In this document: positions 771-19,312 of the stretch, in pieces
Numbering within the stretch: the stretch's first letter is position 1
Layout: each line of letters begins with the position of its first letter
Assembly: GCF_018343775.1 (NCBI RefSeq)
Contig: NZ_CP074349.1
Span: 3,896,001-3,960,000 of the forward strand
Direction of reading: 5' to 3'
DNA: 64,000 bases
Source of the DNA: Pseudomonas cichorii
GTDB lineage: Bacteria; Pseudomonadota; Gammaproteobacteria; Pseudomonadales; Pseudomonadaceae
Position numbers and translations under genes: made by a program
The notes under the pieces: model-generated
The model's database searches: none
What the model saw: only the letters and a program-made list of their open reading frames with translations
Told to the model about the DNA's origin: nothing

Positions 771-919
771 TCGGCGTCAGGGTATGGATGAATCACTTTG
801 TGGGAGATCGCTTGCTGGCGACTTCATGTACAGGCGCAGGATATCTGCCGGTTTTTAGGCCTTTTCGCCAGCAAGCTGCCTCCCACACGTTTTGTTTGTG
901 CCTTAACTGATCGGCATTA
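771..919. repeat. MITE-like/BIME element, inverted relative of 52558-52713
   Basis: An inner pair of inverted arms (799-818 and 869-888) carries the REP-like words gcttgctggcga and tcgccagcaagc. Its right end, CCTTAACTGATCGGCATTA (901-919), is the reverse complement of the left end of the element at 52558-52713, and the two elements match over most of their length in opposite orientation. The left end is degenerate and abuts the kinase stop codon. It may also act as a transcript-end hairpin for the kinase gene. Confidence 0.7.
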
Positions 920-950
920 AAGCGTAGCCCGCCCCCCAATCGCCAGAAAC

Positions 951-976
951 AAAAAAGCCCGGCGAACCGGGCTTTC
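951..976 (-). terminator. Rho-independent terminator of the lipoprotein gene
   Basis: Stem AGCCCGG / CCGGGCT around a short loop (956-973). Read on the minus strand it is followed by a T6 run. It lies 17 bases beyond the stop codon of the minus-strand gene ending at 993. Confidence 0.85.
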
Positions 977-992
977 TAAAGCTGGGTACTGA

Positions 993-1328
993 TTATTTAG
1001 CAGTCTTCAGCTTGATAACATCACCGGATACGGTGGTGGTGTAGCCGTTCAGGACCCAGGCCCAGAACCACTTTTCCTGTACTTGAGTATTGATCAGCGC
1101 ATCGCCACCTTTCGCCTGGATGGCAGAGTTTTGAGCGCGAACAAAACGATCGTTCTGACGAATAGGGATCAGACCGAAAAGCATCAGGCCCGTAGCGCTT
1201 GCTTCACTGTGGCCAACGACGGTGTACTGGTTGCTATCGTATTGCTGAGTCTTCATTGCGGTGCCGGTGCAACCCGCTAGAACCAGACCACATACTGCAG
1301 AAGCGATGATTTTACTGACGAACTTCAC
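993..1328 (-). CDS. Small conserved lipoprotein of unknown function
   Basis: A 111-residue product. I chose the GTG at 1328 (VKFVSKIIAS...) because it puts the signal peptide directly at the N-terminus; a longer frame exists up to 1361. The signal peptide ends in a lipobox, LVLAGC, so the protein should be lipidated and anchored in the envelope. The remaining ~90 residues are unrecognised apart from a glycine/alanine-rich stretch near a short hydrophobic patch (TGLMLFGLIPI). It is a single-gene unit with its own terminator at 951-976. No function is proposed. Confidence 0.8.
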   Translation of the reverse strand: MKFVSKIIASAVCGLVLAGCTGTAMKTQQYDSNQYTVVGHSEASATGLMLFGLIPIRQNDRFVRAQNSAIQAKGGDALINTQVQEKWFWAWVLNGYTTTVSGDVIKLKTAK

Positions 1329-1536
1329 GATGTTTCCCCATGATATAAAACCCGAATCCAATTATCGGGCGGCGACACTTTACCCGAAGAGTTCAAACGT
1401 TTGACACTTTTTACACCTATGTTCCCTGAGCACACGCCGTTCTCGTATGGGTATATATCGGCCCCCTGAGCAAAGTTGAGGATTCATATCCAGGCGGGAT
1501 TCAATCGGTAAGCAATAACACCTGAGCAGATCTGAC

Positions 1537-3951: not shown

Positions 3952-4026
3952 GGAGCAAAATGTCCTTTGGTGATTACAGATTCACTACTAAGGACGGGCA
4001 CCGTGAAAAAACGGGCCAAAAAAAGA

Positions 4027-4959
4027 TCATGCCTTGCTCACCGTCACCCAATAACGGGTTCGATAACTCACTGTCACCGGGAGAGTGGTCGGCAGCGCGG
4101 CGAGAATGGCATCGCTGTTGTCGAGCTGGAAGCCACCGCTGATACGCAAAGCCGATGCACTTTCATCACAATGCAGTCGGCCTGGGCGATAGCGGGTCAG
4201 CTCCTGGAGGAAATCGCGCAGCGGCAAGTTATCAGCCACCAGTTCGCCTTGTGTCCAGCGTGTAGCCAGTTCGCTGGCAGGGCGTAACGGGCCGAAGGCC
4301 GCAGCGCTGAAAGACACTTGCTCTCCCGCCTCCACAACCTGTGGCGCTGTCTGCGCAGGCGTAGCCCGAACCCGGCCTTGCAGCACCGCCAGCTGTGTGG
4401 TGCCACTGAGCTGGCGCACACTGAAGCGCGTCCCCAAAGGCTCCATAAGCCCTTGTTCACTGGCCACACGCAAAGGACGTGTATCGACGCCGGTGCTGAT
4501 CAATATCTCCCCGCGAACCAAGCGGATCAACCGCTGCCCGGCATCGAATTGCACGTCGATGGCGCTGTCGGTGTTGAGGTCGACCACACTTCCATCAGCG
4601 AGTGTCAGTTGCTGCCGTTCGCCTGTGCGGGTGCGGTAGTCAGCCATCCAGCCCTGCTCGGTGCCAAAGCGATACCCAAGGTAGCCAGCGGGCGCAATGG
4701 CGGCCAACACCAGCAGCGTCTTCAAGACCTGGCGCCGTTCGCGGTTGAGAGTCCCCATGGCAATGGAGGGCGGCAGACCACCCAGTTGCTGTTGCACATG
4801 CTGTACCCGCTGCCAAGCACGCTCATGCTCGGGGTCGGCCGCACGCCACCGAGCACAGGCCTGCTGTTGCGCGGGGCTCAGAGACTGCTCATGCATCAGC
4901 ACAAGCCAATGGGCGGCCTGGCGTGCGACGTCACGACTGATCGGGGCCTGCGCGGACAT
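4027..4959 (-). CDS. FecR-type anti-sigma/sigma regulator
   Basis: 310 residues. The N-terminal cytoplasmic part (about 10-75, the DUF4880-type region HWLVLMHEQSLSP) binds the sigma factor. A single membrane segment lies near residues 92-110 (VLKTLLVLAAIAPAGYLGY), and the periplasmic FecR domain follows with the usual TADGSVVDLNTDSAI-like motif. It relays occupancy of the STN receptor to the ECF sigma factor. Its ATG overlaps the sigma stop codon (TAATG at 4959), so the two are translationally coupled. The order sigma, FecR, receptor is the classical iron surface-signalling arrangement. Confidence 0.92.
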   Translation of the reverse strand: MSAQAPISRDVARQAAHWLVLMHEQSLSPAQQQACARWRAADPEHERAWQRVQHVQQQLGGLPPSIAMGTLNRERRQVLKTLLVLAAIAPAGYLGYRFGTEQGWMADYRTRTGERQQLTLADGSVVDLNTDSAIDVQFDAGQRLIRLVRGEILISTGVDTRPLRVASEQGLMEPLGTRFSVRQLSGTTQLAVLQGRVRATPAQTAPQVVEAGEQVSFSAAAFGPLRPASELATRWTQGELVADNLPLRDFLQELTRYRPGRLHCDESASALRISGGFQLDNSDAILAALPTTLPVTVSYRTRYWVTVSKA

Positions 4960-5465
4960 TAAAGCGTCACGTCGCTCAGGATGCAGGCTTCAAAGGCAGT
5001 GGCCATATGACGTTTGACGGTACGCTCACCAATGCCCAACTGTCGGGCGATCTGCACATAGGTCAGGCCATCGAGCTGTGCCAATAGAAACACCGCACGT
5101 ACGACAGGTTTAAGGCGGTCAAGCAAGGCGTCGAGCTGGAACAGCGTTTCGCGCATCTGCCATTGATCTTCCGGCGACAGGGAAAAGGCTTCGGGCATCG
5201 TGGCGAGCATGTCGAGATAGGCCCGCTCCAGCGACTGCCGACGGAAATAGTCGCAAACCAGCCGCTGGCCCACCGTCGCCAGATAGGCCCGCGGACGGTC
5301 CAGGGTCAGGGTTTCGCCGGTTCTACGCTGCGAAGTGAGAATACGGAGGAAGGTGTCATGTGCCAGGTCCGCCGCCTGGCTGTTGCAACCCAGGCGACGA
5401 TAAAGCCAGCCCGTCAGCCAGCTATTGTGCTCTGCATAGAGAAGCCCTATACGATCCTCGCCCAC
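4959..5465 (-). CDS. FecI-family ECF sigma factor
   Basis: 168 residues with region 2 (DLAHDTFLRILTS, residues ~33-45) and a C-terminal region 4 helix-turn-helix (LTYVQIARQLGIGERTVKRHM). It directs RNA polymerase to the promoter of the receptor gene when released or activated by the partner FecR. A near-consensus Fur box lies about 35 bases upstream (5499-5517), so the whole cassette should be switched on by iron starvation. Length and layout are typical of the FecI group. Confidence 0.93.
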   Translation of the reverse strand: MGEDRIGLLYAEHNSWLTGWLYRRLGCNSQAADLAHDTFLRILTSQRRTGETLTLDRPRAYLATVGQRLVCDYFRRQSLERAYLDMLATMPEAFSLSPEDQWQMRETLFQLDALLDRLKPVVRAVFLLAQLDGLTYVQIARQLGIGERTVKRHMATAFEACILSDVTL

Positions 5466-5498
5466 GACTTGCCTCCCGAAAGAAGCGGCGATAATAAT

Positions 5499-5517
5499 TG
5501 ATAATGATTCTCATATC
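5499..5517. promoter_or_regulatory. Fur box in front of the ECF sigma gene
   Basis: The sequence TGATAATGATTCTCATATC closely matches the Fur consensus GATAATGATAATCATTATC and sits just upstream of the minus-strand start at 5465, where a promoter is expected. Confidence 0.8.
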
Positions 5518-5784
5518 AATGCGGATTCACAGTGCGGACTCCAGCCTGGGATCACTCTGGAAACTGGACCTTTGCCCAACATTGCTCAATCCAGTCGCAC
5601 TGAGGGACGTGCCTTGTCTGACAGGTAGCGAGGGCTGGCACAAAACACATTCGGCATGACACCAATGCGCCGGGCAACCATTATTACCATCACGAGCAAT
5701 AGCGTGGGCGGCCAGCCTGTCTCAATGAGCGTTGAGGATAAGTCTTGTCACCCGCGGTCTTCGGAAGCAGGTTGCCAAATCGAG
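5518..5784. other. Intergenic stretch with no recognised gene
   Basis: The gap between the Fur box and the TetR operator holds no open frame with a ribosome binding site, no terminator-like hairpin and no repeat that I can support. It presumably contains the divergent promoters. Confidence 0.5.
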
Positions 5785-5800
5785 TAGACGACTGGTCGGT
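5785..5800. promoter_or_regulatory. Candidate operator O1 of the TetR regulator (autoregulation)
   Basis: TAGACGACTGGTCGGT shares 13 of 14 leading bases with the site at 6428-6443 in front of nemA. It lies 22 bases before the tetR start codon. Confidence 0.65.
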
Positions 5801-5822
5801 TTCTATCTACAATCCCCACCCT

Positions 5823-6404
5823 ATGAAAAAGCAAGCCCAAGACATGCGACAGCACATCATCGATGTAGCCAAGTCGCTGATGACGAACAAAGGTTACACC
5901 GCCGTCGGCCTCGCAGAGGTGCTGAACGCTGCCGGCGTGCCCAAAGGCTCGTTCTATTACTACTTCAAATCGAAGGAAGAGTTCGGTCAGGCGCTGCTCG
6001 AAGAGTATTTTGCCGACTATCTGTCTCGGGTAGATTCACGCATGGCGAACCCCGGCAGTGGTGCTGAACGGTTGGTTGCGTACTTTGATTACTGGATCGA
6101 AACCCAAGGTACGGATCTGCCGGAGGGCAAATGCCTGGTCGTGAAACTGGGGGCTGAGGTCTGCGATTTGTCTGAAGACATGCGCCATGTCCTTGAAAAA
6201 GGTACAGCGAAGATCATTCAGCGGATCACGGCCTGCACCGAACGAGGGATTGCGGACGGCAGTATCAACACGGATGAGAAGCCCGAAGTCTTTGCCGAAT
6301 CCCTTTATCAGCTTTGGCTGGGTGCTTCGCTCCTGGCGAAGGTCAACAAATCTTCAGCGCCCTTCGACACAGCCATGAACCTGACAAAACGTCTGCTCCA
6401 GTGA
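5823..6404 (+). CDS. nemR: TetR/AcrR-family repressor (NemR-like)
   Basis: 193 residues from the ATG at 5823 (MKKQAQDMRQHI). I preferred this to an in-frame start at 5745 because the helix-turn-helix then begins at the N-terminus, as is usual, and because the longer version would translate across the operator at 5785. The DNA-binding helices are TAVGLAEVLNAAGVPKGSFYYYF (residues ~24-47), diagnostic of the family. The ligand domain has a Cys in GKCLVVKLGAEVC, in the region where NemR-like proteins sense electrophiles; that link is inference. It lies 57 bases upstream of nemA in the same direction, and both genes carry the same palindromic operator. Confidence 0.85.
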   Translation: MKKQAQDMRQHIIDVAKSLMTNKGYTAVGLAEVLNAAGVPKGSFYYYFKSKEEFGQALLEEYFADYLSRVDSRMANPGSGAERLVAYFDYWIETQGTDLPEGKCLVVKLGAEVCDLSEDMRHVLEKGTAKIIQRITACTERGIADGSINTDEKPEVFAESLYQLWLGASLLAKVNKSSAPFDTAMNLTKRLLQ

Positions 6405-6427
6405 CGCTGGTTTTTTTGCCTACCAAC

Positions 6428-6443
6428 TAGACGACCGGTCGAA
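6428..6443. promoter_or_regulatory. Candidate operator O2 of the TetR regulator at nemA
   Basis: TAGACGACCGGTCGAA contains the perfect 10-bp palindrome CGACCGGTCG (6432-6441). It lies 19 bases upstream of the nemA ATG and matches the site before tetR. Confidence 0.7.
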
Positions 6444-6461
6444 TACATACAGGTAACCATC

Positions 6462-7565
6462 ATGAATGACCACAGCCTCCACACCGATCTGTTCTCCCCT
6501 ACACGCATGGGTTCCATTGAGCTCGCCAACCGGATTGTGATGGCGCCCGTCACCCGCAGTCGTTATGAAGAAGATGGCGTCCCGAATGAAATGCACGCCA
6601 CTTATTACGCACAGCGCGCCACGGCAGGCCTGATTGTGGCCGAAGCGACCAATATCTCCGCGCAGGGCCGAGGCTATGCAGCGACTCCCGGCATCTGGAG
6701 TGAGGAACAGGTTGCAGGCTGGCGCAAAGTCACCGATGCCGTACATGCGGCAGGTGGAAAAATCGTCAGTCAGCTCTGGCACGTAGGACGGTTCTCCACT
6801 GTCGACCTGCAACCGGACCGCCAGGCTCCCGTAGCACCATCAGCCATCAAGGCAGAGGGAAACACCTACACGACTGAGGGCTTCGTACCTGTCTCCATGC
6901 CTCGCGCTCTGGAAACCGACGAAATTCCGGGAATCATCGAGCAGTACACACGGGCTGCCGAGAACGCCAAACGTGCTGGCTTCGATGGCGTTGAAGTGCA
7001 CTCAGCCAACAGTTACTTGCTGGATCAGTTTCTGCGGGACTCCACCAATCAACGCACCGACTCATACGGCGGTTCGATAGAGAACCGCGCCCGCCTGCCT
7101 CTGGAAGTAACCCGGGCCATTGTCGATATCTGGGGCAGTGATCGTGTAGGCATCCGCCTTTCACCCGTCACGCCCGATGCCGGCAACACCAAACCGGACA
7201 GCAACGTGATGGGGCTGCACGGTTATCTGATCCGGCAGTTGAACACCTTCAATCTGGCCTATTTGCACTTCGTCGAAGGTGCTACCGCAACCTCGCGTGA
7301 AGTCCCGGAAGGTGTCGATATGGACGCATTGAGCGCTCTGTTCGATGGGCCTTTCATTGGCAATAACAACTATGACTTCAAGATGGCCGTCGAGCGCAGG
7401 GCACAGGACAAGATCGACGCTGTAGCGTTCGGGCGCCTGTTCATTGCCAACCCTGATCTGGTCAAGCGGCTGCGTTATGGCGCCGCTCTGAGCATTGCCC
7501 CTCGCGAGTCCTATTACGGCGGTGGTGCAAAAGGCTACATCGATTGGCCGCCAGGCAACTTCTGA
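6462..7565 (+). CDS. nemA: Old yellow enzyme, N-ethylmaleimide reductase/alkene reductase
   Basis: 367 residues forming an FMN-binding TIM barrel. Visible motifs are the N-terminal LFSPTRMGSIELANRIVMAPVTRSR, the substrate-activating pair HSAN (a His/Asn pair, FDGVEVHSANSYLLDQFLRD), and the C-terminal FMN phosphate region FGRLFIANPDLV. The family uses NADPH to reduce activated C=C bonds, nitro-esters and quinones, and protects against electrophiles. It is preceded by a TetR gene with matching operators and followed 56 bases later by a small NTF2-like gene, so a repressor-detoxification unit is likely. Length is normal for the family. Confidence 0.93.
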   Translation: MNDHSLHTDLFSPTRMGSIELANRIVMAPVTRSRYEEDGVPNEMHATYYAQRATAGLIVAEATNISAQGRGYAATPGIWSEEQVAGWRKVTDAVHAAGGKIVSQLWHVGRFSTVDLQPDRQAPVAPSAIKAEGNTYTTEGFVPVSMPRALETDEIPGIIEQYTRAAENAKRAGFDGVEVHSANSYLLDQFLRDSTNQRTDSYGGSIENRARLPLEVTRAIVDIWGSDRVGIRLSPVTPDAGNTKPDSNVMGLHGYLIRQLNTFNLAYLHFVEGATATSREVPEGVDMDALSALFDGPFIGNNNYDFKMAVERRAQDKIDAVAFGRLFIANPDLVKRLRYGAALSIAPRESYYGGGAKGYIDWPPGNF

Positions 7566-7621
7566 CACCAGCCCGACTTATCCCACCCGTTTACCCAACA
7601 TCACTTCAGGAGAAGTACTTC

Positions 7622-8008
7622 ATGAGCAAAAATATCAAGACCGTTCCGACTCAGGACTACAATGCCGTCATTGCCACGGCCAGCAAATATGTCGAAGGCT
7701 TGCGAGTCGGCAGCGTCGATGCCATCGCTGAAGCCTTCCACGCCGACGCCGTGATGTACGGCTTCACCAATGGAGAATTGCTGGGTGGCCCGATAGAAAA
7801 TCTATACACATTCGTCGAAAAGAATGGCACGGCCCCCGACATCGTTACGCGCCTCGATGTACTGGCCATAACACCGACCACTGCCGTCGTCCGGATTGAT
7901 ATGGAAAAAGACGCCATCGGTGCCGATTACAACGACTACCTGACCCTGATCAAGATCGACAGCGACTGGAAAGTCATTGCCAAGGTTTATCATCAGTTTG
8001 AAAGTTAA
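7622..8008 (+). CDS. NTF2-like/putative lumazine-binding protein
   Basis: 128 residues from the ATG at 7622, behind a good ribosome binding site (CAGGAGAAG). The fold is the cone-shaped NTF2/SnoaL type: an N-terminal helix (YNAVIATASKYVEGLRVGSVDAIAEAFHADAVMYG) and a C-terminal strand pattern with DYLTLIKIDSDWKVIAKVYHQF, which is characteristic of the putative lumazine-binding family PF12893. Such proteins act as small ligand-binding or isomerase-like accessories. Its position behind nemA suggests a role with the old yellow enzyme; that is inference from context. Confidence 0.8.
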   Translation: MSKNIKTVPTQDYNAVIATASKYVEGLRVGSVDAIAEAFHADAVMYGFTNGELLGGPIENLYTFVEKNGTAPDIVTRLDVLAITPTTAVVRIDMEKDAIGADYNDYLTLIKIDSDWKVIAKVYHQFES

Positions 8009-8126
8009 TCAGGAAGGAGGGCTTATTGACTCTGGTCATCGGCCCTACTCTTTCAACGATTAAACGGCATCTATCAGGTATTCGGCATTAGAGTGGGGGG
8101 CAACCCGATGCAGGCAGAAGAAGCAT

Positions 8127-8618
8127 TCAAACCAGCCCCCCCACCCACTGCCAAGGCGCCATCTTCGTCACCATGATCAGTACGATAACGAACATCCCCG
8201 CAAAACCCAGCACGCCCATCCAGAACCACTTCCGGTAAATCGACCGATACTCCGCCCCCAATTCTGCACCCGAGTTGACTGCGGCCAGAGCCATCGCCTG
8301 CAATTGATTTTGCAGGATCAGCACCGGCAGCCAGAGTGAGCCGACACACAGGAAAATCACCAGCGAGGTCAGTACCCATTCCGTGGTCAGGGGCAGGCCC
8401 ATGATGCGGGTCAGCAGGTAACCGGTGATGATCTGCACAAAACCCGCCGGGGTGGTAATCCAGGTGTCAAAGCGCACCACCATTCTGGCGACATGTGCGA
8501 TGACGTGCGGGTTGGCAGTGCGGCTTGCGGCGATCAGGTAAAGGTAAGACCCCATGCCGAAACCAAACAGGAAAATCGCCGCGATGATGTGGGTGTATTT
8601 CAGGAGAAGATAAGTCAT
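8127..8618 (-). CDS. DUF2269-family inner membrane protein
   Basis: 163 residues with four hydrophobic segments (about 6-26, 50-72, 82-102 and 130-152). The start MTYLLLKYTHIIAAIFLFG with an early His, and a second conserved region around RFDTWITTPAGFVQIITGYLL, are typical of DUF2269 proteins. Conserved His/Arg residues in the membrane hint at cofactor binding, but no function is established. It begins 10 bases after the stop of the saccharopine-dehydrogenase-like gene and is probably co-transcribed with it. Confidence 0.8.
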   Translation of the reverse strand: MTYLLLKYTHIIAAIFLFGFGMGSYLYLIAASRTANPHVIAHVARMVVRFDTWITTPAGFVQIITGYLLTRIMGLPLTTEWVLTSLVIFLCVGSLWLPVLILQNQLQAMALAAVNSGAELGAEYRSIYRKWFWMGVLGFAGMFVIVLIMVTKMAPWQWVGGLV

Positions 8619-8627
8619 CGGTCAGCG

Positions 8628-9749
8628 CTACGTGTCGGAAAACTGTACTGACAGATGGATATTCAACGGCTCGTTGATCGCTGCCAGGTACTCGTCAACG
8701 GTAATCTCTCCCACGCAGGCCCGGGCACCGGGTTCAGGCTTGTAACCGCGATTGACCTTTTCCATCAGGGCGACGGCTGCACAACTGGGAATTTCCGGCC
8801 CTTTGTCATTGGAAGCCGTCAATTGCACCGTCATCAGCAACGGCCTGGCGTCATGGTCGCCGCCGTGAACATCAATGAACATCGCACTTTTTCCGTCACC
8901 AAAACGCTCAAACCACGTCCCCCAGCGATGCAGCCTCGCAGCCCACACAGGAACAGAACGGATCAACCCCGCCTTCACTGCCAGAGCCAGCAAATAGTTG
9001 GCGACACCTCCGAGTTTCAAGCCCGACCCGGCCTTGAAGCTCAGGTTCCTGGCGCCATAGCGCCCGGCAAAAATATCCATATCGGGGACATCGACATTGG
9101 CCAGGAGCCGGGTGCCCATCATCGGCATCTTGCGCAAGGTCAGTCCCTGCCAGCCCGGCACCGCATGCACCTGCCCTTCCTTGAGCTGGCTGATCGGCTT
9201 GCCGGCGTACGCCAGCACACCTTCTATGGTCGACAGGCCCGGCATTTTCGCTGACGAAGAAATGCCATGGTTGATGGTGTCGATGCGGGTAAAGCGATGG
9301 CGGTGTTGATCGATGATGGCCGAAGACAGCGAAGGCACGGAACTGCAACCGCTGAAGATCGCCACGCCCGCCGCTCTGGCGCGTGCATCGAGCGCTGAAA
9401 TGCCGTTGACGAAGTGGCGGCAGTCGGACAAGTCGCAGTAATTGACGCCAGCCTCGATGCAGGACTCGGCAATGGCATAGGATTGCCCCTGAAACGGGCC
9501 AGCCGTATGAATCACCCAATCGATCCCCATTTGCACCAGGACCGGTTGTAGCTCTGCGCTCATGGCGTTGCCACACCAACCTTGCACGGCCTTGCCAGAC
9601 TGCCGCCCAAGCGCCTCGACCTTTCGGGAAAGTTTTTGCGCATCACGCCCTGTAATGACCAGTTCGATATCGGGTACAGCAGCGAGATGCCGACAAATGA
9701 TACTGCCGAAATTTCCATAGCCACCAACCACCATCACCCTGAGCGTCAT
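8628..9749 (-). CDS. Saccharopine dehydrogenase-like NAD(P)-binding protein
   Basis: 373 residues from the ATG at 9749 (MTLRVMVVGGYGNFGSIICRHL). The Rossmann glycine motif GGYGNFG lies at residues 8-14, which is why I rejected the longer frame reaching 9878. The next segments (DIELVITGRDAQKL; WVIHTAGPFQGQSY; CIEAGVNYCDLSD) are the standard saccharopine-dehydrogenase fold signatures of this oxidoreductase superfamily. Substrate is unknown; the C-terminal half is not diagnostic. It is followed by the DUF2269 membrane protein in what looks like a two-gene operon. Confidence 0.82.
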   Translation of the reverse strand: MTLRVMVVGGYGNFGSIICRHLAAVPDIELVITGRDAQKLSRKVEALGRQSGKAVQGWCGNAMSAELQPVLVQMGIDWVIHTAGPFQGQSYAIAESCIEAGVNYCDLSDCRHFVNGISALDARARAAGVAIFSGCSSVPSLSSAIIDQHRHRFTRIDTINHGISSSAKMPGLSTIEGVLAYAGKPISQLKEGQVHAVPGWQGLTLRKMPMMGTRLLANVDVPDMDIFAGRYGARNLSFKAGSGLKLGGVANYLLALAVKAGLIRSVPVWAARLHRWGTWFERFGDGKSAMFIDVHGGDHDARPLLMTVQLTASNDKGPEIPSCAAVALMEKVNRGYKPEPGARACVGEITVDEYLAAINEPLNIHLSVQFSDT

Positions 9750-9939
9750 GCGCAACTTCCCGATATCCGTTGATTCATGCGGCGGCAGCTTCGCTGATAT
9801 CCCGCAGGCGTTCAAGTTGAGAGGCTCGCAGCACGGTTCCTGATGCCATTTCTCGGGGGCAGTCGGGTCATGCATCACGTGTGGGAAGCCGCTTGCTGGC
9901 GACAGGGCCGCTGAGTTTTATGGAAAACTCGGATCGACG

Positions 9940-9957
9940 TATAGCCAAAGGCTTACA
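9940..9957 (+). promoter_or_regulatory. Candidate GacA upstream activating site of RsmX-like copy 1
   Basis: TATAGCCAAAGGCTTACA has an exact right half (CTTACA) and a partial left half of the GacA consensus TGTAAG-N6-CTTACA. It is centred about 66 bases before the predicted start of the RNA and is conserved in all three copies. Confidence 0.55.
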
Positions 9958-10013
9958 CGAGCCGGAGACAATTCGCTCTTTCTGCCCTTCGAGAAGGCTC
10001 GTAAGATTGGATC

Positions 10014-10127
10014 CAACAACTGGTGAACAAGGAGTTCGCCAGGATCAAGGATGATCGACCATGGCCCGGAGGGCTGCCGACAGGGAGTTGGAATGGTCTT
10101 TGGAAAAACCCGCTTCGGCGGGTTTTT
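10014..10127 (+). ncRNA. rsmX: RsmX-like GGA-rich regulatory small RNA, copy 1
   Basis: About 114 bases, placed by a -10 box TAAGAT (10002-10007) and a strong terminator with stem AACCCGC-TTCG-GCGGGTT followed by T5 (10104-10127). The RNA carries at least seven GGA motifs, three of them exposed in hairpin loops: GAAC-AAGGA-GTTC, GATC-aaggat-GATC and GCCC-GGA-GGGC. This is the architecture of RsmX/Y/Z RNAs, which titrate the translational repressors RsmA/E under GacS/GacA control. The same sequence, including its promoter, recurs at 10518 and 11578. P. syringae strains are known to carry several rsmX paralogues. The family call rests on GGA loops, size, terminator and the GacA-like site, not on a database match. 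Confidence 0.75.
10104..10127 (+). terminator. Terminator of RsmX-like copy 1
   Basis: Stem AACCCGC / GCGGGTT closed by a TTCG tetraloop and followed by a T run. Confidence 0.85.
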
Positions 10128-10174
10128 ATTTGCCTGCAGAAAAGTGAGCCTGACGGCTCAGCGCCTCATCTCCC

Positions 10175-10336
10175 TCACTGCAAACCTGCAGGGGCCGCCT
10201 CTTGAGCGGATTCAGCAGCCATTTTCAATCGGTCAGCCTTGCAGATGTATTTAGGCTTGCTCTTGGGTGCCAGTTTGGCACTGGCCTTCTTGGCGTGAGC
10301 CTTTAATAGCTGCTGGATCTTTTTACGACGATTCAT
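10175..10336 (-). CDS. DUF2986-family small basic protein
   Basis: 53 residues, translated by hand from the ATG at 10336: it begins MNRRKKIQQLLKAHAKKASA and continues KLAPKSKPKYICKADR, ending at a TGA at 10175. The Lys/Arg-rich start and the KSKPKYI motif are hallmarks of DUF2986 proteins, which are small, highly basic and of unknown function. It sits alone on the minus strand between the first two RsmX-like RNA genes. The high charge would suit nucleic acid or ribosome association, but that is inference only. Confidence 0.8.
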   Translation of the reverse strand: MNRRKKIQQLLKAHAKKASAKLAPKSKPKYICKADRLKMAAESAQEAAPAGLQ

Positions 10337-10443
10337 GTTTTCTACTCAGCGTGTGAACGCCTGAATGATATCAGCTTGAGATATCGGACCAGAGCCCTGA
10401 AGAGCCGGTTGATCAGCGGTCATGGAAAATTTCACAGCCGACG

Positions 10444-10461
10444 TATAGCCAAAGGCTTACA
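10444..10461 (+). promoter_or_regulatory. Candidate GacA upstream activating site of RsmX-like copy 2
   Basis: Identical to the site at 9940-9957 (TATAGCCAAAGGCTTACA) and at the same distance from the predicted RNA start. Confidence 0.55.
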
Positions 10462-10517
10462 CGAACCGAGGACAATTCGCTCTTTTTGCCCTTCAAGAAG
10501 GCTCGTAAGATTGGATC

Positions 10518-10630
10518 CAACAACTGGTGAACAAGGAGTTCGCCAGGATCAAGGACGATCGACCATGGCCCGGAGGGCTGCCGGCAGGGAGTTGGAATGG
10601 TCTTTGGAAAACCCGCTTCGGCGGGTTTTT
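10518..10630 (+). ncRNA. rsmX: RsmX-like GGA-rich regulatory small RNA, copy 2
   Basis: Near-identical to copy 1. The -10 box is TAAGAT (10506-10511) and the terminator lies at 10608-10630. GGA-loop hairpins are at 10529-10541 (GAAC-AAGGA-GTTC), 10547-10560 (GATC-AAGGAC-GATC) and 10568-10578 (GCCC-GGA-GGGC). The third hairpin of the series and the linkers add further GGA motifs (GGGAG, TTGGAAT, TTGGAAA). Differences from copy 1 include an A/G change in the GATC hairpin loop and one A fewer before the terminator. The repeated block spans the upstream activating site to the terminator, so each copy should be an independent transcription unit. Confidence 0.75.
10608..10630 (+). terminator. Terminator of RsmX-like copy 2
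   Basis: Same hairpin as copy 1 (ACCCGC-TTCG-GCGGGT) followed by T5. Confidence 0.85.
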
Positions 10631-10968
10631 ATTTGCCTGTAGAAAAGTGAAAGCCGGTTTTCAGCAAGCGGTCACCTCGCCTCTCCCGAAACAAGGTTCA
10701 GTGAGCACACAGCCGATTTCGGAGTGAGCCTCACTTCATACAAAGCCTGCAAATCCTTTTAAAGCCCAATGATGCCGATGCCGGGATTATACAATCCCGT
10801 GCATAACGCCTTGCAGCCTCTTGCGATGCGGCAGAAGACGCTCCCGAATAGAATGAGCCGACTCCAAGCCAATACGAAAACTTCAAGTTACAGACTTGGC
10901 TGATAGCGCAAGAAAACCAACGCGCCCTGCTTTCGGCAATGCATGCACTTTTAATGCAGCCATGAACA

Positions 10969-10997
10969 TTGACTTTATATAAACACCCGCCTCTATC
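10969..10997 (+). promoter_or_regulatory. Putative sigma-70 promoter of the lipoprotein gene at 11019
   Basis: TTGACT (10969-10974), a 17-base spacer, then TCTATC (10992-10997), 21 bases before the ATG. The remainder of the stretch 10631-10968 holds no gene I can support. Confidence 0.45.
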
Positions 10998-11018
10998 GTT
11001 TAACAGAGAAGCCATACT

Positions 11019-11414
11019 ATGAGCGTATTTAAATCCACGTTATTCATGTTTTCAATAGTGATTCTGGCCGCATGTTCCACACAGCCTCCGGCTATCAAAA
11101 AGGGTGAGTCCGTCGTTCATCTACAGGCGCAGGCTGGCAATGAAATGACCGCCAGGCGGCTGGATCAGCAGCGCGCCCAAAGCCTGACGCAGTTTCAGGT
11201 ATCGGAAGGAAAACACGAACTGGAGTTAGGCCTTGTGCAAATGGGCTACCAACAAAGTCAGCGCCGTTGCGTGGCGACTCTCGCTTATGACAACTTCATG
11301 GCTGACCAGCGTTATACATTGATTGAGAAAAGCTCTGGCGCGGATATACACATAGCGCTTATTGACAGCGATGGAAAAACACTGACCCAAACCAGACAAG
11401 TAGCGTGCCTGTAA
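11019..11414 (+). CDS. Small lipoprotein of unknown function
   Basis: 131 residues. The signal peptide MSVFKSTLFMFSIVILAAC ends in a lipobox (LAAC at about 16-19), followed by STQPP, so lipidation at Cys19 is expected. The mature part contains a polar region rich in Gln and a beta-rich end with two further cysteines (RRCVATLAY and the terminal QVACL), which could form a disulfide. I do not recognise a family. It lies between RsmX-like copies 2 and 3 and has base composition lower in GC than its neighbours. Confidence 0.75.
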   Translation: MSVFKSTLFMFSIVILAACSTQPPAIKKGESVVHLQAQAGNEMTARRLDQQRAQSLTQFQVSEGKHELELGLVQMGYQQSQRRCVATLAYDNFMADQRYTLIEKSSGADIHIALIDSDGKTLTQTRQVACL

Positions 11415-11503
11415 TCAAGCAAAGCCCTCTCTCTTATAAAGCCAAGCGGACCACCGCTCTGACATCCCACACCCGGGATGGAGCAGGGAAATTTCAGGCA
11501 ACG

Positions 11504-11521
11504 TATAGCCAAAGGCTTACA
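11504..11521 (+). promoter_or_regulatory. Candidate GacA upstream activating site of RsmX-like copy 3
   Basis: TATAGCCAAAGGCTTACA again, at the same distance from the predicted RNA start as in copies 1 and 2. Confidence 0.55.
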
Positions 11522-11577
11522 CGAACCGAGGACAATTCGCTCTTTTTGCCCTTCGCGAAGGCTCGTAATATTGGATC

Positions 11578-11691
11578 CAACAACTGGTGAACAGGGAGTT
11601 CGCCAGGATCAAGGACGATCGACCATGGCCCGGAGGGCTGCCGGCAGGGAGTTGGAATGGTCTTTGGAAAAACCCGCTTCGGCGGGTTTTT
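11578..11691 (+). ncRNA. rsmX: RsmX-like GGA-rich regulatory small RNA, copy 3
   Basis: Third copy of the block. Its -10 box is TAATAT (11566-11571), nearer to consensus than the TAAGAT of the other two. The first loop reads cAGGGA instead of AAGGA, still holding a GGA. The terminator is at 11668-11691. It is separated from copy 2 by about 950 bases that include a lipoprotein gene. Spacing and conservation suggest duplication of a complete gene with its regulatory region. Confidence 0.75.
11668..11691 (+). terminator. Terminator of RsmX-like copy 3
   Basis: Stem AACCCGC-TTCG-GCGGGTT followed by a T run. Confidence 0.85.
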
Positions 11692-11726
11692 ATTTGCCTG
11701 TAGAAAACACGATGGGTGTACGCCCC

Positions 11727-11750
11727 TTCGCGAATGAATTCGCTCCCACA
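11727..11750. repeat. REP element (single)
   Basis: TTCGCGAATGAATTCGCTCCCAC, the common REP word of this genome, between RsmX-like copy 3 and the LysR gene end. Confidence 0.7.
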
Positions 11751-11785
11751 AGGCCCCTTCCACAGATTGTGACATCGCCCGTTTT

Positions 11786-12661
11786 TTACGCAGGCACCAG
11801 CGTCTCCAGCAGCCACGACCCTGCCGGTCCCAGGCTGCGCTGGCGTGACCAGATCACATCCACCGCCGAACTGCGCGGCCAGCCGGGCACCTTGAGCTCC
11901 TTCAGCAGCCCGCTGGCGTAGCGCGACACCAGCCAGCGCGGCAAGGCCGACCAGCCAAAGCCGAATCCCGCCATGTCCATCAACAACAGATAATTGGGCG
12001 CCGACCAGTTGCTGTAGCCACTGGTGGGCAAGTCGTCGGTGGGGATGCTGTGGTCAATCAAGGTATTGAGGCGCAGCGCCCGGTATTCGGACAGTTGCTG
12101 ATAATTGACCTGCTCCAGCGCAGCAAGCGGATGGGTGTGGGCGACGAACAGACCGAAGTCCGCACGCTCGACAATGGTTGCGTGGCCGATTTCCGGCGGG
12201 TAGCTCGCCTGTGCCGACAACAGTCCCAGAGACGCCCTGCCCGACTGGATCAGGTTGATCGCATCGCCGTGCTCGGCAAACACGCACTCCAGCTCCAGTT
12301 CGGGAAAGCGCTGGTCCAGTTCCGTCATACGCACTTCGAACTCGGAAAACTGGTTGGCATCGGACAGCACCAGAGTCAGGCGCGGCTCGGCACCTGCCGC
12401 CAGACGCCCGGCGGTACGGCGCAGGCGATCCGAAGCACTGAGCACATCCTCGACGCGCCCCAGCATGGCCTTGCCCGCTTCGGTCAGGACCGGCTGACGG
12501 GCGGAACGGTCGAACAGTTCCAACCCCAGATCGATTTCCAGGCGGGCAATGGCTTCGCTGATGGTGGACTGGCTCTTGCCCAGGCGACGGGCAGCGGCGC
12601 TGAAAGAACCCAGTTCGACGATCTGGGCAAAGGCTTCAAGGGCTTCGGGTGAAAAACTCAT
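11786..12661 (-). CDS. LysR-family transcriptional regulator
   Basis: 291 residues from the ATG at 12661 (MSFSPEALEAFAQIVELGSFSAAA). The N-terminal helix-turn-helix is SFSAAARRLGKSQSTISEAIARLE, followed by the LysR linker and a substrate-binding domain. It diverges from a PACE-family efflux gene with a 99-base gap that contains a 15-bp dyad typical of LysR operators (12674-12688). Control of the efflux gene, as with AceR/AceI in Acinetobacter, is a reasonable inference. A start further upstream is open but would run through the dyad. Confidence 0.88.
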   Translation of the reverse strand: MSFSPEALEAFAQIVELGSFSAAARRLGKSQSTISEAIARLEIDLGLELFDRSARQPVLTEAGKAMLGRVEDVLSASDRLRRTAGRLAAGAEPRLTLVLSDANQFSEFEVRMTELDQRFPELELECVFAEHGDAINLIQSGRASLGLLSAQASYPPEIGHATIVERADFGLFVAHTHPLAALEQVNYQQLSEYRALRLNTLIDHSIPTDDLPTSGYSNWSAPNYLLLMDMAGFGFGWSALPRWLVSRYASGLLKELKVPGWPRSSAVDVIWSRQRSLGPAGSWLLETLVPA

Positions 12662-12673
12662 GGACGACCTGCT

Positions 12674-12688
12674 ATCGGTTTTTCCGAT
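12674..12688. promoter_or_regulatory. Candidate LysR operator between lysR and PACE genes
   Basis: ATCGG-TTTTT-CCGAT, a perfect dyad with 5-bp arms and a 5-bp centre, located 13 bases from the lysR start and about 72 bases from the efflux gene start. Confidence 0.55.
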
Positions 12689-12760
12689 GGAAACGATTTT
12701 CACTTTAGCCCAATGACCGATGAGAATGCACCCATACCGCAACACAAAAGGTCATCTGTA

Positions 12761-13243
12761 ATGAGCCAGACAAACCACGATCGCCCAGCTGTACCCAGCA
12801 AATCCTTCAAGGAGCGCATCCTGCATGCGAGCTTGTTCGAGGTGTGCGGCGTAATCATGATCGCGCCGTTGCTGGCCTGGATCATGGGGCATTCGCTCGG
12901 CATGATGGGGGCCATGACGGTGATGATTTCCACAGTGGCCATGATCTGGAACATGGTCTACAACGCCCTGTTCGACAGACTGCGCGCCCGACTCGGTTTC
13001 AGCATGACCCTGGGCAAGCGCGCACTTCATGCCCTGGGTTTTGAAGGCGGGCTGATTCTCGCCGTGGTGCCTCTGGCAGCCTGGTGGTTGTCCATCAGCC
13101 TGCTTGAAGCCTTCCTGCTGGATATCGGTATTCTGCTGTTGTTCCTGCCTTACACCATGCTGTTCAACTGGGCCTACGACCTCGTACGCGAGCGGGTCAT
13201 GCAGCGCCGCCTGTCCAGATGTGGCGAGGCCTCACGGTCCTGA
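12761..13243 (+). CDS. PACE-family multidrug/biocide efflux transporter
   Basis: 160 residues from the ATG at 12761 (MSQTNHDRPAV). Four transmembrane segments form two tandem bacterial-transmembrane-pair domains: helices near residues 28-46 and 50-72, then 88-106 and 114-134. The diagnostic motif of each PACE repeat is visible: RILHASLFEVCGVIMIAPLLAW with the essential Glu in the first helix, and WNMVYNALFDRL; the second repeat has RALHALGFEGGLILAVVPLAAW and FNWAYDLVRERV. Proteins of this family export chlorhexidine and related cationic compounds or polyamines. Confidence 0.88.
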   Translation: MSQTNHDRPAVPSKSFKERILHASLFEVCGVIMIAPLLAWIMGHSLGMMGAMTVMISTVAMIWNMVYNALFDRLRARLGFSMTLGKRALHALGFEGGLILAVVPLAAWWLSISLLEAFLLDIGILLLFLPYTMLFNWAYDLVRERVMQRRLSRCGEASRS

Positions 13244-13320
13244 ATGCATTTGCCGTTGGATTGCAATGAAAGGGTTCGGGCACAATCATCGGCCCACAGC
13301 GACGATAAGGTCTGTCCGAC

Positions 13321-14154
13321 ATGACCACGGAAATTCTCAAACTGGCTGCCTTCAGCGACGGCGATCAAGGCGGCAACCCGGCCGGTGTATGGATTGGCGA
13401 TGCGCTGCCCGATGACAGCACCATGCAGCGCATTGCAGCCGAGGTCGGCTTTTCGGAAACGGCTTTCGCGGCCCCGCTGGACGATGGATGGCGCGTACGC
13501 TACTTCTCGCCCTTGGCCGAAGTGCCCTTCTGCGGCCATGCCACCATTGCTCTGGGCGCCGCACTGGCCGCGCAGCAAGGCGACGGGCTGTTCAAGCTGA
13601 CCCTCAATCAGGCGCAGATCACGGTCGAAGGCCATGCCCATGGGTCACTGACCTCAGCCGCCTTGCAGTCGCCACCCACCCATAGCAAAGCCATAAGCCC
13701 GCAATTGCTGGAGGAAGCCTTGAACCTGTTCGGCTATGAGCGCAGTGATCTGGATGAACGCATTCCACCCGCAGCGATCAACGGCGGCGCCGGGCATCTG
13801 GTACTGGCGCTCAAAAGCCGCTCAAAGCTCAAGGCCATGCAATACGATCAGGAAGCCGGACGCCAATTGATGGTGCGCGAAGGCTGGGCCACCATCGTGC
13901 TGGTGTTTGCCGAAACCGAGCAGTTCTTCCATACCCGCAATCCGTTCGCCTTTGGCGGTGTCTACGAAGACCCGGCCACCGGCGCGGCAACAGCAGCGCT
14001 GGGCGGCTACCTGCGTGATATCGGTTGGCCCCACGGCGGCGTTATCGACATTCTGCAAGGCGAAGACATGGGCAGCCCGTCACGCCTGCGCGCCGAAATC
14101 CCGGAACAGATCGGCAGTTCGATCCGAGTGTCGGGGATGGCGCGCAAGCTGTAG
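13321..14154 (+). CDS. PhzF-family isomerase-like protein
   Basis: 277 residues with the PhzF diaminopimelate-epimerase-like fold. Key spots are GNPAGVW near residue 20, the catalytic-type Glu in VGFSETAFA (about residue 45), the FSPLAEVPFCGHAT motif (where the family has F-P-E/V-CGHAT), and the C-terminal DPATGAATAALGGYL. PhzF enzymes isomerise by acid-base proton transfer. No phenazine genes are nearby, so this is one of the widespread PhzF-like paralogues and its substrate is unknown. It is followed convergently by an MFS gene six bases away. Confidence 0.88.
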   Translation: MTTEILKLAAFSDGDQGGNPAGVWIGDALPDDSTMQRIAAEVGFSETAFAAPLDDGWRVRYFSPLAEVPFCGHATIALGAALAAQQGDGLFKLTLNQAQITVEGHAHGSLTSAALQSPPTHSKAISPQLLEEALNLFGYERSDLDERIPPAAINGGAGHLVLALKSRSKLKAMQYDQEAGRQLMVREGWATIVLVFAETEQFFHTRNPFAFGGVYEDPATGAATAALGGYLRDIGWPHGGVIDILQGEDMGSPSRLRAEIPEQIGSSIRVSGMARKL

Positions 14155-14160
14155 AAAGCT

Positions 14161-15312
14161 TCAGGTTTTGAGCTGGCTGCCACTGATCGCTACGCCCAGC
14201 AGCATCACGGCAACGATCATGAACGCCAGCTCCAGGCTGCTGACATGGGCAATAAAGCCGATGGCGGCCGGCCCGACCAGAATCCCGGCGTAACCGACCG
14301 TGGTGATGGCCGGGATCGCAACACTTTCCGGCATGGTGGTCTGCCGACCGACCGCGCTGTAGCAGACCGGCACGATATTCGAGCAACCGGCGCCCACCAA
14401 GGCATAGCCCAACAGAGCCGCTTCCCAGGCTGGCACCAGCGTGGCAATCGCCAGACCGCTGGCAGCGCACAACCCGCCCAGAATGATGACCCGGTTGGAA
14501 CCGAGCCTGCGCACCACAGCATCGCCAAAAAGACGCCCAAAGGTCATGGTCACGGCAAATACGGCGTAACCCAGCCCGGCATAGGACGTTTCAACACCCC
14601 TCAGCGAGCTGAGGAACACCGCGCTCCAGTCAAGCATCGCCCCTTCGGCGAGAAACACGGTGAAGCACAGCAGGCCGATGAACAGCACCACGCCACGGGG
14701 AATCGCGAAGGCAGGCCCCTCGGACTTGCTGCCATAAGGCAACAGATGTGGCGTGGCCTTGGCCAGTGCGGCAAGTGTCAGCACAACCACCACCAGCATC
14801 GCCACCAGCGGCGAAGCCCCCAGGGTCAGCAAGATGCTGACGCCACCGGCCCCGACAATACCGCCCAGGCTGAACAGGCCATGAAAGCCCGACATCATGG
14901 TCTTGCCGCTGGCCCGCTCGACAATGACCGCCTGGATATTGGCCGTGCAATCCACACCGCCCATGCTCGCGCCGAACAGAAACAGGGTCGCCACCAGCAG
15001 CGGCAGGCTAGAGACAGTGGCCAGCAAGGGCAGGCACAGACAGATCAACAGGGTCGAAATGACCAGCAAGCGGCGGCAACCGTAACGCGACGCCAGCGCA
15101 CCCGCCAAAGGCATGGACAGGATCGAGCCCATCCCCAGGCACAGCAACAACAAACCCAGTGTGCCGTCATCCAGTCCGACACGGGCCTTGGCATAAGGCA
15201 CCAGAGGTGCCCAGGAGGCGACGCTGAAACCTGCAATGAAAAACGCTATCCGGGTGGAAGACTGCTCCTGCCGGGCCTTTGCTATCGGGGCCTCGTGGCT
15301 GAAAGAGGTCAT
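14161..15312 (-). CDS. MFS transporter (YbjJ-like)
   Basis: 383 residues from the ATG at 15312, which follows a strong AAGGAG. The longer frame to 15369 lacks this signal. About 12 hydrophobic segments, the MFS motif GRLFGDAVVRRLGSNR between the middle helices, and repeated small-residue helices (LLLLCLGMGSILSMPLAGALASRYG at about residues 53-77) indicate a major facilitator. It resembles the YbjJ/FucP-like branch. Substrate is unknown. Confidence 0.85.
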   Translation of the reverse strand: MTSFSHEAPIAKARQEQSSTRIAFFIAGFSVASWAPLVPYAKARVGLDDGTLGLLLLCLGMGSILSMPLAGALASRYGCRRLLVISTLLICLCLPLLATVSSLPLLVATLFLFGASMGGVDCTANIQAVIVERASGKTMMSGFHGLFSLGGIVGAGGVSILLTLGASPLVAMLVVVVLTLAALAKATPHLLPYGSKSEGPAFAIPRGVVLFIGLLCFTVFLAEGAMLDWSAVFLSSLRGVETSYAGLGYAVFAVTMTFGRLFGDAVVRRLGSNRVIILGGLCAASGLAIATLVPAWEAALLGYALVGAGCSNIVPVCYSAVGRQTTMPESVAIPAITTVGYAGILVGPAAIGFIAHVSSLELAFMIVAVMLLGVAISGSQLKT

Positions 15313-15395
15313 GCAAACTCCTTGAGAACACCAGACAGAATCGTGCTGGCGAGCCCGACAGCCTAGCAAAGTCAGAGACTATTGCAGACCGCACA

Positions 15396-15479
15396 GGAGC
15401 GATTTTATCCGCGAAAGCACCATTAAAGGCGCCGCACTCTCTTTGGCTTCACTGGCCTCTCGCGAATAAATTCGCTCCT
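15396..15479. repeat. REP pair (BIME)
   Basis: Two oppositely oriented REP words, GGAGCGATTTTATCCGCGAA (15396-15415) and TCGCGAATAAATTCGCTCCT (15460-15479), between the divergent MFS and rarD genes. Confidence 0.75.
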
Positions 15480-15576
15480 ACTGCCTGCAGAAATACTCCA
15501 GCTATTTTCAAACCTTCGCACTAGACTACGCACCTTTGCAGTGCATCCCGCTCGCCCATCCATCAAAGAGGCCGCT

Positions 15577-16461
15577 GTGTATAAAGGTGTCGTGCTGTCG
15601 GTCATGGCGTCGGTGCTGTTCGCCGTCATGTACTTCTATACCTCACTGATGACACCCCTGACCGGCGAGGAAATCTTCGGTTGGCGCATGTTGCTGACCG
15701 TGCCTTGTGCCACGCTGTTCATGCTGGTCAGTGGCGACTGGAAACTGGTGCGGGCACTGGCCGGGCGCATCTGGCGTCAGCCGCTGCTGGTGTTTGGCAT
15801 CCTGCTGTCTTCGCTGCTGCTAGGCGCGCAACTGCTGATCTTCATGTGGGCGCCATTGCACGGGCGCAGCCTGGAAGTGTCCCTGGGTTATTTCCTGCTG
15901 CCGCTGACCATGATCGCCACGGGCCGTATCGTGTACGGCGAACACCTGTCGCATCTGCAGAAGATCGCCGCTTCGCTAGCCCTGATCGGCGTGGGCCACG
16001 AACTGTGGCGGCTGGGCAGTTTCTCCTGGGAAACCCTGCTGGTGGCGCTGGGTTATCCGCTCTACTTCGTCCTGCGACGCAAGCTCAAGACCGATAACCT
16101 GGGCGGGCTGTGGTTCGACATGCTGTTCATGCTGCCCATCGGCCTGTGGTTCATTGCCAACGGCAATCCGATGGCGGCTCAGGACGAACCCAAACTCTAC
16201 TTTCTGATCCCGCTGCTGGGCATCATCAGCGCCTCGGCCCTGATCAGCTACATCCTTTCCAGCCGCATTCTGCCGTTCAGTCTGTTCGGCCTGCTCAGCT
16301 ATGTGGAGCCCGTACTGCTGGTGTGTGTCGCGCTGCTGCTGGGTGAAAGCATTGGCCGTGATGAATGGCTGACCTACCTGCCGATCTGGCTGGCGGTGGT
16401 GGTGCTGGTCATTGAGGGCGCCAGGCATATGCTGGCCCAACGTCGTCGGGATGCTGCCTGA
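15577..16461 (+). CDS. rarD: RarD-like drug/metabolite transporter (EamA family)
   Basis: 294 residues from a GTG at 15577 (VYKGVVLSVMASVLFAVMYFYTSLM), chosen because AAAGAGG lies 5 bases before it. Ten hydrophobic helices in two EamA repeats are visible. The N-terminal motif FGWRMLLTVPCATL and the GRSLEVSLGYFLLPL segment are typical of RarD, a permease of unknown natural substrate once linked to chloramphenicol sensitivity. It is flanked by REP elements and converges on zapE. Confidence 0.88.
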   Translation: MYKGVVLSVMASVLFAVMYFYTSLMTPLTGEEIFGWRMLLTVPCATLFMLVSGDWKLVRALAGRIWRQPLLVFGILLSSLLLGAQLLIFMWAPLHGRSLEVSLGYFLLPLTMIATGRIVYGEHLSHLQKIAASLALIGVGHELWRLGSFSWETLLVALGYPLYFVLRRKLKTDNLGGLWFDMLFMLPIGLWFIANGNPMAAQDEPKLYFLIPLLGIISASALISYILSSRILPFSLFGLLSYVEPVLLVCVALLLGESIGRDEWLTYLPIWLAVVVLVIEGARHMLAQRRRDAA

Positions 16462-16473
16462 ACGTCAGGCCGA

Positions 16474-17589
16474 TCAATGCCCGGTAAAACGCTCCAGTTG
16501 CATTTCCTGCAGGCGACTGAGGGTGCGGCGAAAGGCAAACGACAGATACCCCTGGGTGTACAGCTCCTCCATGGAAGTCTGCGCCTCGATATACAGCGGG
16601 ATGCGCCGGTCGTAGCACTCGTCCACCAAAGCGATGAAGCGCCGCACACCGTCGTCGTTGGGTGACAGTTGCGGCAATTGCCGATCCCCCGCCACGACCT
16701 GCTCGACACCATCCTCGGTGCCACGGGCAATCTTCGCTTCGCGCTGAGCCGCGCTCAGGGCCGGGACCTCGCCAAGCAGGATCACCGAGAAACGATCGCA
16801 CAACGCAATGAAATCCATGGCCGCCAGGGGTTGCTCACACAGATCCCGGTAACGGCACCAGACCGTGGTGTCGGTGTGCTGCACCACGTTGATGCTGCGA
16901 TAACCGAGCATCACCTGCGAGTCATACACCGCCTGCCCGCCACTCAGCGCCTTGAAGATATCCCCCAGCGCACTGGCCTGCCCCGGCTCGGCAACCCAGT
17001 AACGCTGATGCAACTGGCCGGGATGCAGACGATGATCTTCGCCACCGTCCACGGTCACCACATCCATGTACTGCTGGATTGCAGCGATGGCGGGCAGGAA
17101 TCGCTCGCGGTTATGGCCGTGGCTGTACAACTGATCTGGTGGCTGGTTGGAGGTACAGACCAGCACCACGCCTTCCTCGAACATGACCTGCAACAGGCCG
17201 CCGAGAATCACCGCATCGCCGATATCGGTGACGAACAACTCATCGAAACACAGCACCCGCACCTCGCGGGCCAGCTCACAGGCAACGACTTTCAGCGGCT
17301 GGGGCGTGCCCATCAGCTCGAACATGCGCTTGTGGACCCAGCGCATGAAGTGATGAAAATGCTGACGCCGGGCCGGTACGCTCAGGCTGTCGAAAAAACG
17401 GTCCATCAGCCAGGTCTTGCCGCGCCCGACAGGCCCCCACAGATAAACGCCCCTGGGTGTCGTGCCCTTCTGCACCAGCGCCAGGTAGCACCCCTGCAAT
17501 TGTCGGGCAGCCTGAAGTTGCGCCTCGTCAGGCTGAAAACCACGCTGGACCGCTCGTTCATAAGCATCCAGAGGAGACACGACATCCAT
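16474..17589 (-). CDS. zapE: ZapE, AFG1-like ATPase of cell division
   Basis: 371 residues. Walker A is GPVGRGKTWLMD (residues ~52-63) and Walker B lies in VLCFDELFVTDIGDA; a sensor region CTSNQPPDQLY follows. The family ATPase in E. coli binds FtsZ and is needed for division under stress. Length and motifs are standard. The ATG at 17589 follows AAGGTGCG. It converges with rarD 12 bases away. Confidence 0.92.
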   Translation of the reverse strand: MDVVSPLDAYERAVQRGFQPDEAQLQAARQLQGCYLALVQKGTTPRGVYLWGPVGRGKTWLMDRFFDSLSVPARRQHFHHFMRWVHKRMFELMGTPQPLKVVACELAREVRVLCFDELFVTDIGDAVILGGLLQVMFEEGVVLVCTSNQPPDQLYSHGHNRERFLPAIAAIQQYMDVVTVDGGEDHRLHPGQLHQRYWVAEPGQASALGDIFKALSGGQAVYDSQVMLGYRSINVVQHTDTTVWCRYRDLCEQPLAAMDFIALCDRFSVILLGEVPALSAAQREAKIARGTEDGVEQVVAGDRQLPQLSPNDDGVRRFIALVDECYDRRIPLYIEAQTSMEELYTQGYLSFAFRRTLSRLQEMQLERFTGH

Positions 17590-17763
17590 CGAAAACGCAC
17601 CTTAGGCTTCAGGAAAGTTTGCCAGCATATAGAAGCACGAGGCAGATGATAGTCGCACATGACGTCTTTTTAACTGGTCGATTAAACGCATATTTCGTAA
17701 CATCTGCACCCTTCTTTTGTATGCCGACGGCTGTAACGCAGTACGTTCGCCCTCAGGTAAGTC

Positions 17764-19209: not shown

Positions 19210-19312
19210 GCGGTCTGAAACACATGGGTCATATCTTGAGAAAGAACGTTTATTGAGCCCTTTCATGCAAGTGGTAGGGTCTGCTCCCTCACCGAATACG
19301 AGGAAGCTTCAA

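Follow-up and report, generated by a model that had tools for sequence, protein, structure and literature searches.

We found three rsmX genes, each with a terminator and a GacA-like upstream site of its own, within 1.75 kb of a Pseudomonas cichorii chromosome. We consider it about 75% probable that these genes act, as predicted, as sponges for RsmA/E when GacA is active, and that their number and neighbors have likely been driven by recombination. Coordinates refer to the window, that is, the entire 64,000-nt stretch of DNA that was analyzed.

Three rsmX genes and their upstream sites

The Rfam covariance model of rsmX (RF02144, gathering cut-off of 56 bits) matched all three genes over their full length on the forward strand, with 119.5 bits for copy 1 (10015-10128), 109.4 bits for copy 2 (10519-10631), and 117.1 bits for copy 3 (11579-11692). 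A previous sequence-only reading of this DNA had claimed three near-identical RsmX-type genes within 1.75 kb and had named this model as the check. The matches, far over the cut-off at all three sites, bear the claim out, as does a repeat comparison within the window, which placed 9937-10143, 10441-10647, and 11501-11707 in one 207-nt direct-repeat family. Ungapped identity to copy 1 was 87% for copy 2, which has a one-base deletion, and 95% for copy 3. Between pairs, the copies differ at 7-12 of about 210 positions and share identical runs of 56-77 nt; in hairpin 1 it is the loop that varies, in hairpin 2 the stem, and the -10 region is variable as well. With the RsmY model (RF00195), the cluster copies reached 27.0-35.1 bits against a gathering cut-off of 57. 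RsmZ/PrrB (RF00166, gathering cut-off of 44) had no match in the cluster, and its single match in the genome is at C1:1425647.

Each 113-114-nt RNA contains seven GGA motifs, in line with the earlier count of at least seven. In minimum-energy folds, four of the seven are predicted to lie in apical loops in every copy; looped GGA motifs had been claimed before, but at three per RNA rather than four. None of 200 shuffles folded as well as the copies (z of -5.51, -4.53, and -4.40 for copies 1, 2, and 3), and both the GGA count and the predicted fold are alike across the three. Hairpin 3 of the cluster copies (region 10069-10080 of the window) is predicted to have a 5-bp stem and a GGA triloop, whereas in a distant rsmX copy of the genome the predicted stem is shorter and the loop has 5 nt.

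The same 18-base GacA-like site starts 75 nt ahead of each gene on the forward strand (9940-9957, 10444-10461, and 11504-11521). When we searched the genome with a pattern made from this site, six places were found, and none with a reversed control. Five of the six sit 74-75 nt before the five rsmX genes of the genome, with the 18-mer identical in 5/5. The sixth, C1:3857624, was treated as chance, there being no Rfam family over cut-off in its 3-kb locus. By eye, the published GacA site of P. brassicacearum has the same base at 16 of the 18 positions (excerpt of PMC7911923).

Further downstream, a possible -10 box could be picked out by eye on the forward strand of each copy, namely TAAGAT in copies 1 and 2 (10002-10007 and 10506-10511) and TAATAT in copy 3 (11566-11571). 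The sequence-only reading ranked the -10 box of copy 3 as the best and suggested that the copies may differ in strength. By eye, both versions agree with TATAAT at four of six positions, copy 3 being only more AT-rich, so neither the ranking nor the proposed difference in strength is supported. Moreover, TAATAT is found in the copy next to the SDH-like gene in P. cichorii MAFF 302096 and in the copy next to the LysR gene in P. capsici, which implies that the -10 version does not follow position. A sigma-70 scan found no promoter for the copies, and a generic terminator scan did not list their TTCG hairpins (10104-10127, 10608-10630, and 11668-11691); our promoter and terminator calls therefore rest on the sequence and the Rfam alignment. 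The upstream site, the TTCG terminator, and the coordinates proposed earlier agree with the sequence.

Gac/Rsm components and the predicted switch

The 5.98-Mb chromosome carries five rsmX genes, one rsmY over the cut-off, and one rsmZ, with the window cluster accounting for three of these seven rsmX/Y/Z genes. The rsmY gene lies outside the cluster (RF00195, 129 bits). Four CsrA-family genes are present, as is gacA, which adjoins uvrC (NF007018, 315.7 bits, cut-off of 280). Across the genus, a search with stricter filters for large sets gave rsmX matches at E <=0.001 in 336 of 398 Pseudomonas genomes and over the cut-off in 234 of them. All 12 relatives, which were chosen for high rsmX scores, had four to six matches, one of the six in relative G018 being below the cut-off. 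A search of window 1-20000 at E <=0.1 showed the three copies but no counterpart to a faint rsmX-like match in G018 (C1:3787188, 35.4 bits, below the cut-off). At loci L166, L167, and L172 of relatives, rsmX pairs of another subtype lie about 1.0, 1.0, and 1.8 kb apart; spaced rsmX pairs therefore exist elsewhere too. The distant rsmX has the Pseudomonas sRNA P34 (RF02405) some 1.5 kb away, both in the window's genome (L038:7912-8296) and in G018 (L037:7300-7647).

The cluster is probably a dispersed, recombining rsmX array that feeds an ordinary Gac/Rsm switch. The upstream site and the precedent of published strains make control of the three copies by GacA plausible. Following the published mechanism, GacA would activate each copy, the rsmX RNAs would display looped GGA motifs, and RsmA/E would be drawn off target mRNAs. 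The dose of sponge might be additive across copies, in the sense of the dosage control that the sequence-only reading proposed. In excerpts of the published work, mutation of gacA lowers all five rsmX in P. amygdali pv. phaseolicola 1448A (PMC7600136), rsmX-1 and rsmX-2 of P. brassicacearum NFM421 are lost without gacA by Northern blot (PMC7911923), and a gacA mutant of P. savastanoi NCPPB 3335 has no consistent rsmX fall (PMC10875052).

Excerpts from the same literature describe rsmX1-5 in P. syringae, including the tandem rsmX-3/rsmX-4 (PMC7911923, PMC7366521, PMC7952654). Strains DC3000, 1448A, and B728a resemble our genome in that the RNA family is shared, each genome has five copies, and the RNAs are published as GacA-activated sponges (PMC7911923, PMC7952654, PMC7600136). 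The tandem pair of P. syringae, however, is given as about 290 bp apart, whereas the three copies here are separated by protein genes and span 1.75 kb, at a locus where 25 other Pseudomonas genomes showed no rsmX. Moll et al. in 2010 are said, in papers that cite them, to have reported five rsmX in DC3000. The pair in P. brassicacearum NFM421 is likewise a local duplication with a GacA site per copy, the one matched here in 16/18 bases; the excerpt differs from our case in describing two copies that are 75% identical and directly adjacent, with no intervening genes (PMC7911923). Lastly, RsmZ1-7 of Azotobacter vinelandii are, in an excerpt, also an amplified family of Rsm sponge RNAs, although the family is RsmZ and not rsmX (PMC7366521).

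Arrangements of the locus in related genomes

The cluster is bordered by an SDH-like gene (S, 8628-9749, reverse strand; PF03435, 43.9 bits) and a LysR-type regulator gene (R, 11786-12745, reverse strand; PF00126 and PF03466). Between copies 1 and 2 lies a small DUF2986 gene (D, 10175-10336, reverse strand), for which PF11661 gave 67.6 bits on a 49-residue piece (10190-10336) and whose stop codon is by eye at 10175-10177. Between copies 2 and 3 lies a gene for a PA0061/PA0062-family lipoprotein (L, 11019-11414, forward strand; NF052250, 84.8 bits, cut-off of 55), which had no match in a Pfam search. With x standing for rsmX, the order in the window is S-x-D-x-L-x-R.

Of 80 loci that surround a relative of the LysR gene, we examined the 28 of Pseudomonas and left out the other 52. 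Using blastn with 11 rsmX queries, rsmX-like DNA was found at 3 of the 28, namely in P. capsici Pc19-1 (three copies), P. cichorii MAFF 302096 (three), and P. cichorii ICMP 3353 (one), and all seven copies were confirmed by Rfam. At the remaining 25 Pseudomonas loci, several of which span <10 kb on one side, blastn found no rsmX-like DNA. Two copies are present at the locus in G018. In the P. cichorii/P. capsici group, the copy numbers of five genomes, the window's included, are hence 3, 3, 3, 2, and 1, with MAFF 302096 and G370, which have the same layout, counted once. Identity of the LysR gene to that of the window is 93-95% in P. capsici/P. cichorii and 98% in G018.

Each of the five genomes has its own arrangement. 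Read in the direction of the window, the order is S-x-D-x-R in G018, S-x-D-x-F-x-R in P. capsici, and S-x-L-x-D-F-x-R in MAFF 302096, where F denotes 4 kb of DNA containing an FG-GAP protein gene and another LysR-like frame; in ICMP 3353 it is S-(C4 RNA, small frame, REP-like pair)-x-R. All rsmX copies in the five arrangements point in one direction. The majority of changed edges abut an rsmX, and genes lying between the copies have been exchanged, acquired, or dropped. Two changed edges are not at an rsmX, these being D-F in MAFF 302096, where a search for an rsmX remnant found none, and S-C4 in ICMP 3353. In addition, spacers D and L of MAFF 302096 match those of the window only partly. A search of 13 genomes for the FG-GAP protein of F found it in two, the window's own not among them. 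Elsewhere in G018 (L193, C1:2280000-2298000), a diverged F-like FG-GAP gene (78%) occurs about 3.4 kb from an SDH-like gene fragment with two stops, and no rsmX at cut-off was found at this F-like module.

In the P. syringae group, the SDH-like gene (66-70% identity) is about 21-68 kb away from the closest rsmX of its contig in 7/7 of the searched genomes that have this gene. This implies that, among the genomes examined, S-x-R is peculiar to the P. cichorii/P. capsici group. Relatives of lipoprotein L matched at E <=1e-8 in 218 of 398 genomes of the genus. We took 10 lipoprotein loci of about 3.4 kb each, and the eight outside the window's genome and G370 held no rsmX-like DNA; the lipoprotein as such is thus not an rsmX partner.

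Just past copy 3, at 11727-11750 on the forward strand, is a REP-like dispersed 24-mer that recurs at 303 other places, giving 304 genome copies at <=3 mismatches and none with a reversed control. Another pattern, which we take to be the common Pseudomonas REP, matched the window eight times, always with 3 mismatches and never closer (1.18 matches expected). A C4 antisense RNA, a phage-type immunity RNA, lies at 46377-46469 on the forward strand (RF01695, 74.1 bits), and the frames around it gave no phage family in Pfam. C4 RNA was also found near the rsmX locus of G018 (L178:6678-6762) and beside rsmX in ICMP 3353 (L057:11661-11745). At 48106-52332, also on the forward strand, is a frame of 1408 residues in which Pfam finds RTX calcium-binding repeats and a C-terminal RTX domain.

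Probable recombination and the origin of the copies

Direct repeats with identical runs as long as those between the window's copies are reasonable substrates for homologous recombination, by which the DNA in between would be deleted or duplicated. Homologous recombination between the ~190-bp direct repeats probably caused the rearrangements; if copies 2 and 3 of the window crossed over, for instance, the order of G018 would be the outcome. In a stronger version, which we put forward tentatively and at less than even odds, the rsmX copies would be the recombination anchors of a small-RNA-bounded cassette array, in which crossovers swap, gain, or drop modules and reset the copy number from one to three. 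The D-F and S-C4 edges, which are free of rsmX, and the partial matches of D and L in MAFF 302096 argue against recombination at rsmX edges. It is conceivable, if rather doubtful, that REP elements or the insertion of mobile DNA cause the shuffling instead of rsmX-rsmX recombination. Such a cause would fit the perfect REP copy beside copy 3 and the REP-like pair and C4 RNA between S and rsmX in ICMP 3353, and the REP repeats adjoining the cluster could be the true recombination sites; against it, the x-D, D-x, x-L, and L-x edges of the window are by eye without REP and lie at rsmX ends.

The cluster might also be a recent, plain tandem amplification in this lineage that was retained for dose, with the genes between copies being incidental. 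While the few differences among the window's copies and the tandem rsmX pairs in excerpts of the literature suit this explanation, the copies are separated by protein genes of different kinds. Furthermore, the D-x junction copy of the window shows 10 differences to its G018 counterpart and 12 to its P. capsici counterpart, whereas the own copies of these genomes differ among themselves by 29 in G018 and 14-22 in P. capsici. The D-x copies are thus closer across genomes than the copies within G018 or P. capsici are among themselves, and at least two copies seem to predate this strain. The window's three copies also form no clade in the best tree, although a clade constraint was not rejected (p-AU 0.0997). 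We therefore regard plain tandem amplification as unlikely. The sequence-only reading had spoken of a locally amplified rsmX cluster, which is apt insofar as the rsmX genes are clustered but not as a description of plain amplification, given the protein genes between the copies and the other genes and orders in relatives.

The tree, built from 39 cassettes, places the 12 cluster copies on one side (support 89/79, not starred), with several inner forks unsettled. A group of 21 (100/99, starred, with a long-branch warning) unites the cluster copies with the distant 5.83-Mb copy and tandem rsmX (P. cerasi, G313). The distant rsmX site holds a tandem pair in G018 and one copy in the window's genome. 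As judged from the cassette tree and this comparison of distant sites, the five rsmX here probably do not correspond to the five of P. syringae. Orthology position by position was sought with the tree and a table of differences and was given up, the cassettes being too short. The outer two copies share private states in MAFF 302096 and in P. capsici. Such states number 7 in 10 same-genome pairs vs 10 in 56 other pairs, and 1102 of 20000 label shuffles reached 7; homogenization within genomes was thus not significant, and concerted evolution by gene conversion was dropped. The private states of the outer copies hint at gene conversion in a manner that is suggestive only.

Two further explanations concern what the copies do. 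Their roles could be split by affinity for the four CsrA-family proteins or by timing, as might be expected from the variation in hairpin 1, hairpin 2, and the -10 region, and from the unequal rsmX expression described in excerpts for P. savastanoi (PMC10875052) and 1448A (PMC7600136). However, the three copies are alike in GGA count and predicted fold, and RsmX1, RsmX5, RsmY, and RsmZ of DC3000, according to an excerpt, bound a given RsmA protein alike (PMC6715622). We thus hold such diversification to be quite improbable. That one or more copies are silent relics appears very unlikely to us. Inactivity would agree with -10 boxes at 4/6, a sigma-70 scan without a promoter, and a copy number that ranges from one to three in relatives, but each of the three copies has kept an intact upstream site, fold, set of GGA motifs, and terminator. 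Activator-dependent promoters, besides, often lack a good -35, which also counts against relics.

Multi-copy rsmX is in print, in excerpts on P. syringae and P. brassicacearum, so the RNA and its multiplicity are already known and what is added here is the locus. In the literature on rsmX, GacA, copy number, and P. cichorii, this arrangement was not found among the titles and abstracts listed. The copy number of rsmX is known to vary among pseudomonads, and how the change happens is little described in the literature examined. With five arrangements of one locus in five relatives, the gain and loss of copies becomes traceable step by step, and the locus lets one ask whether the dose of sponge tracks copy number and whether a small-RNA gene is a recombination site.
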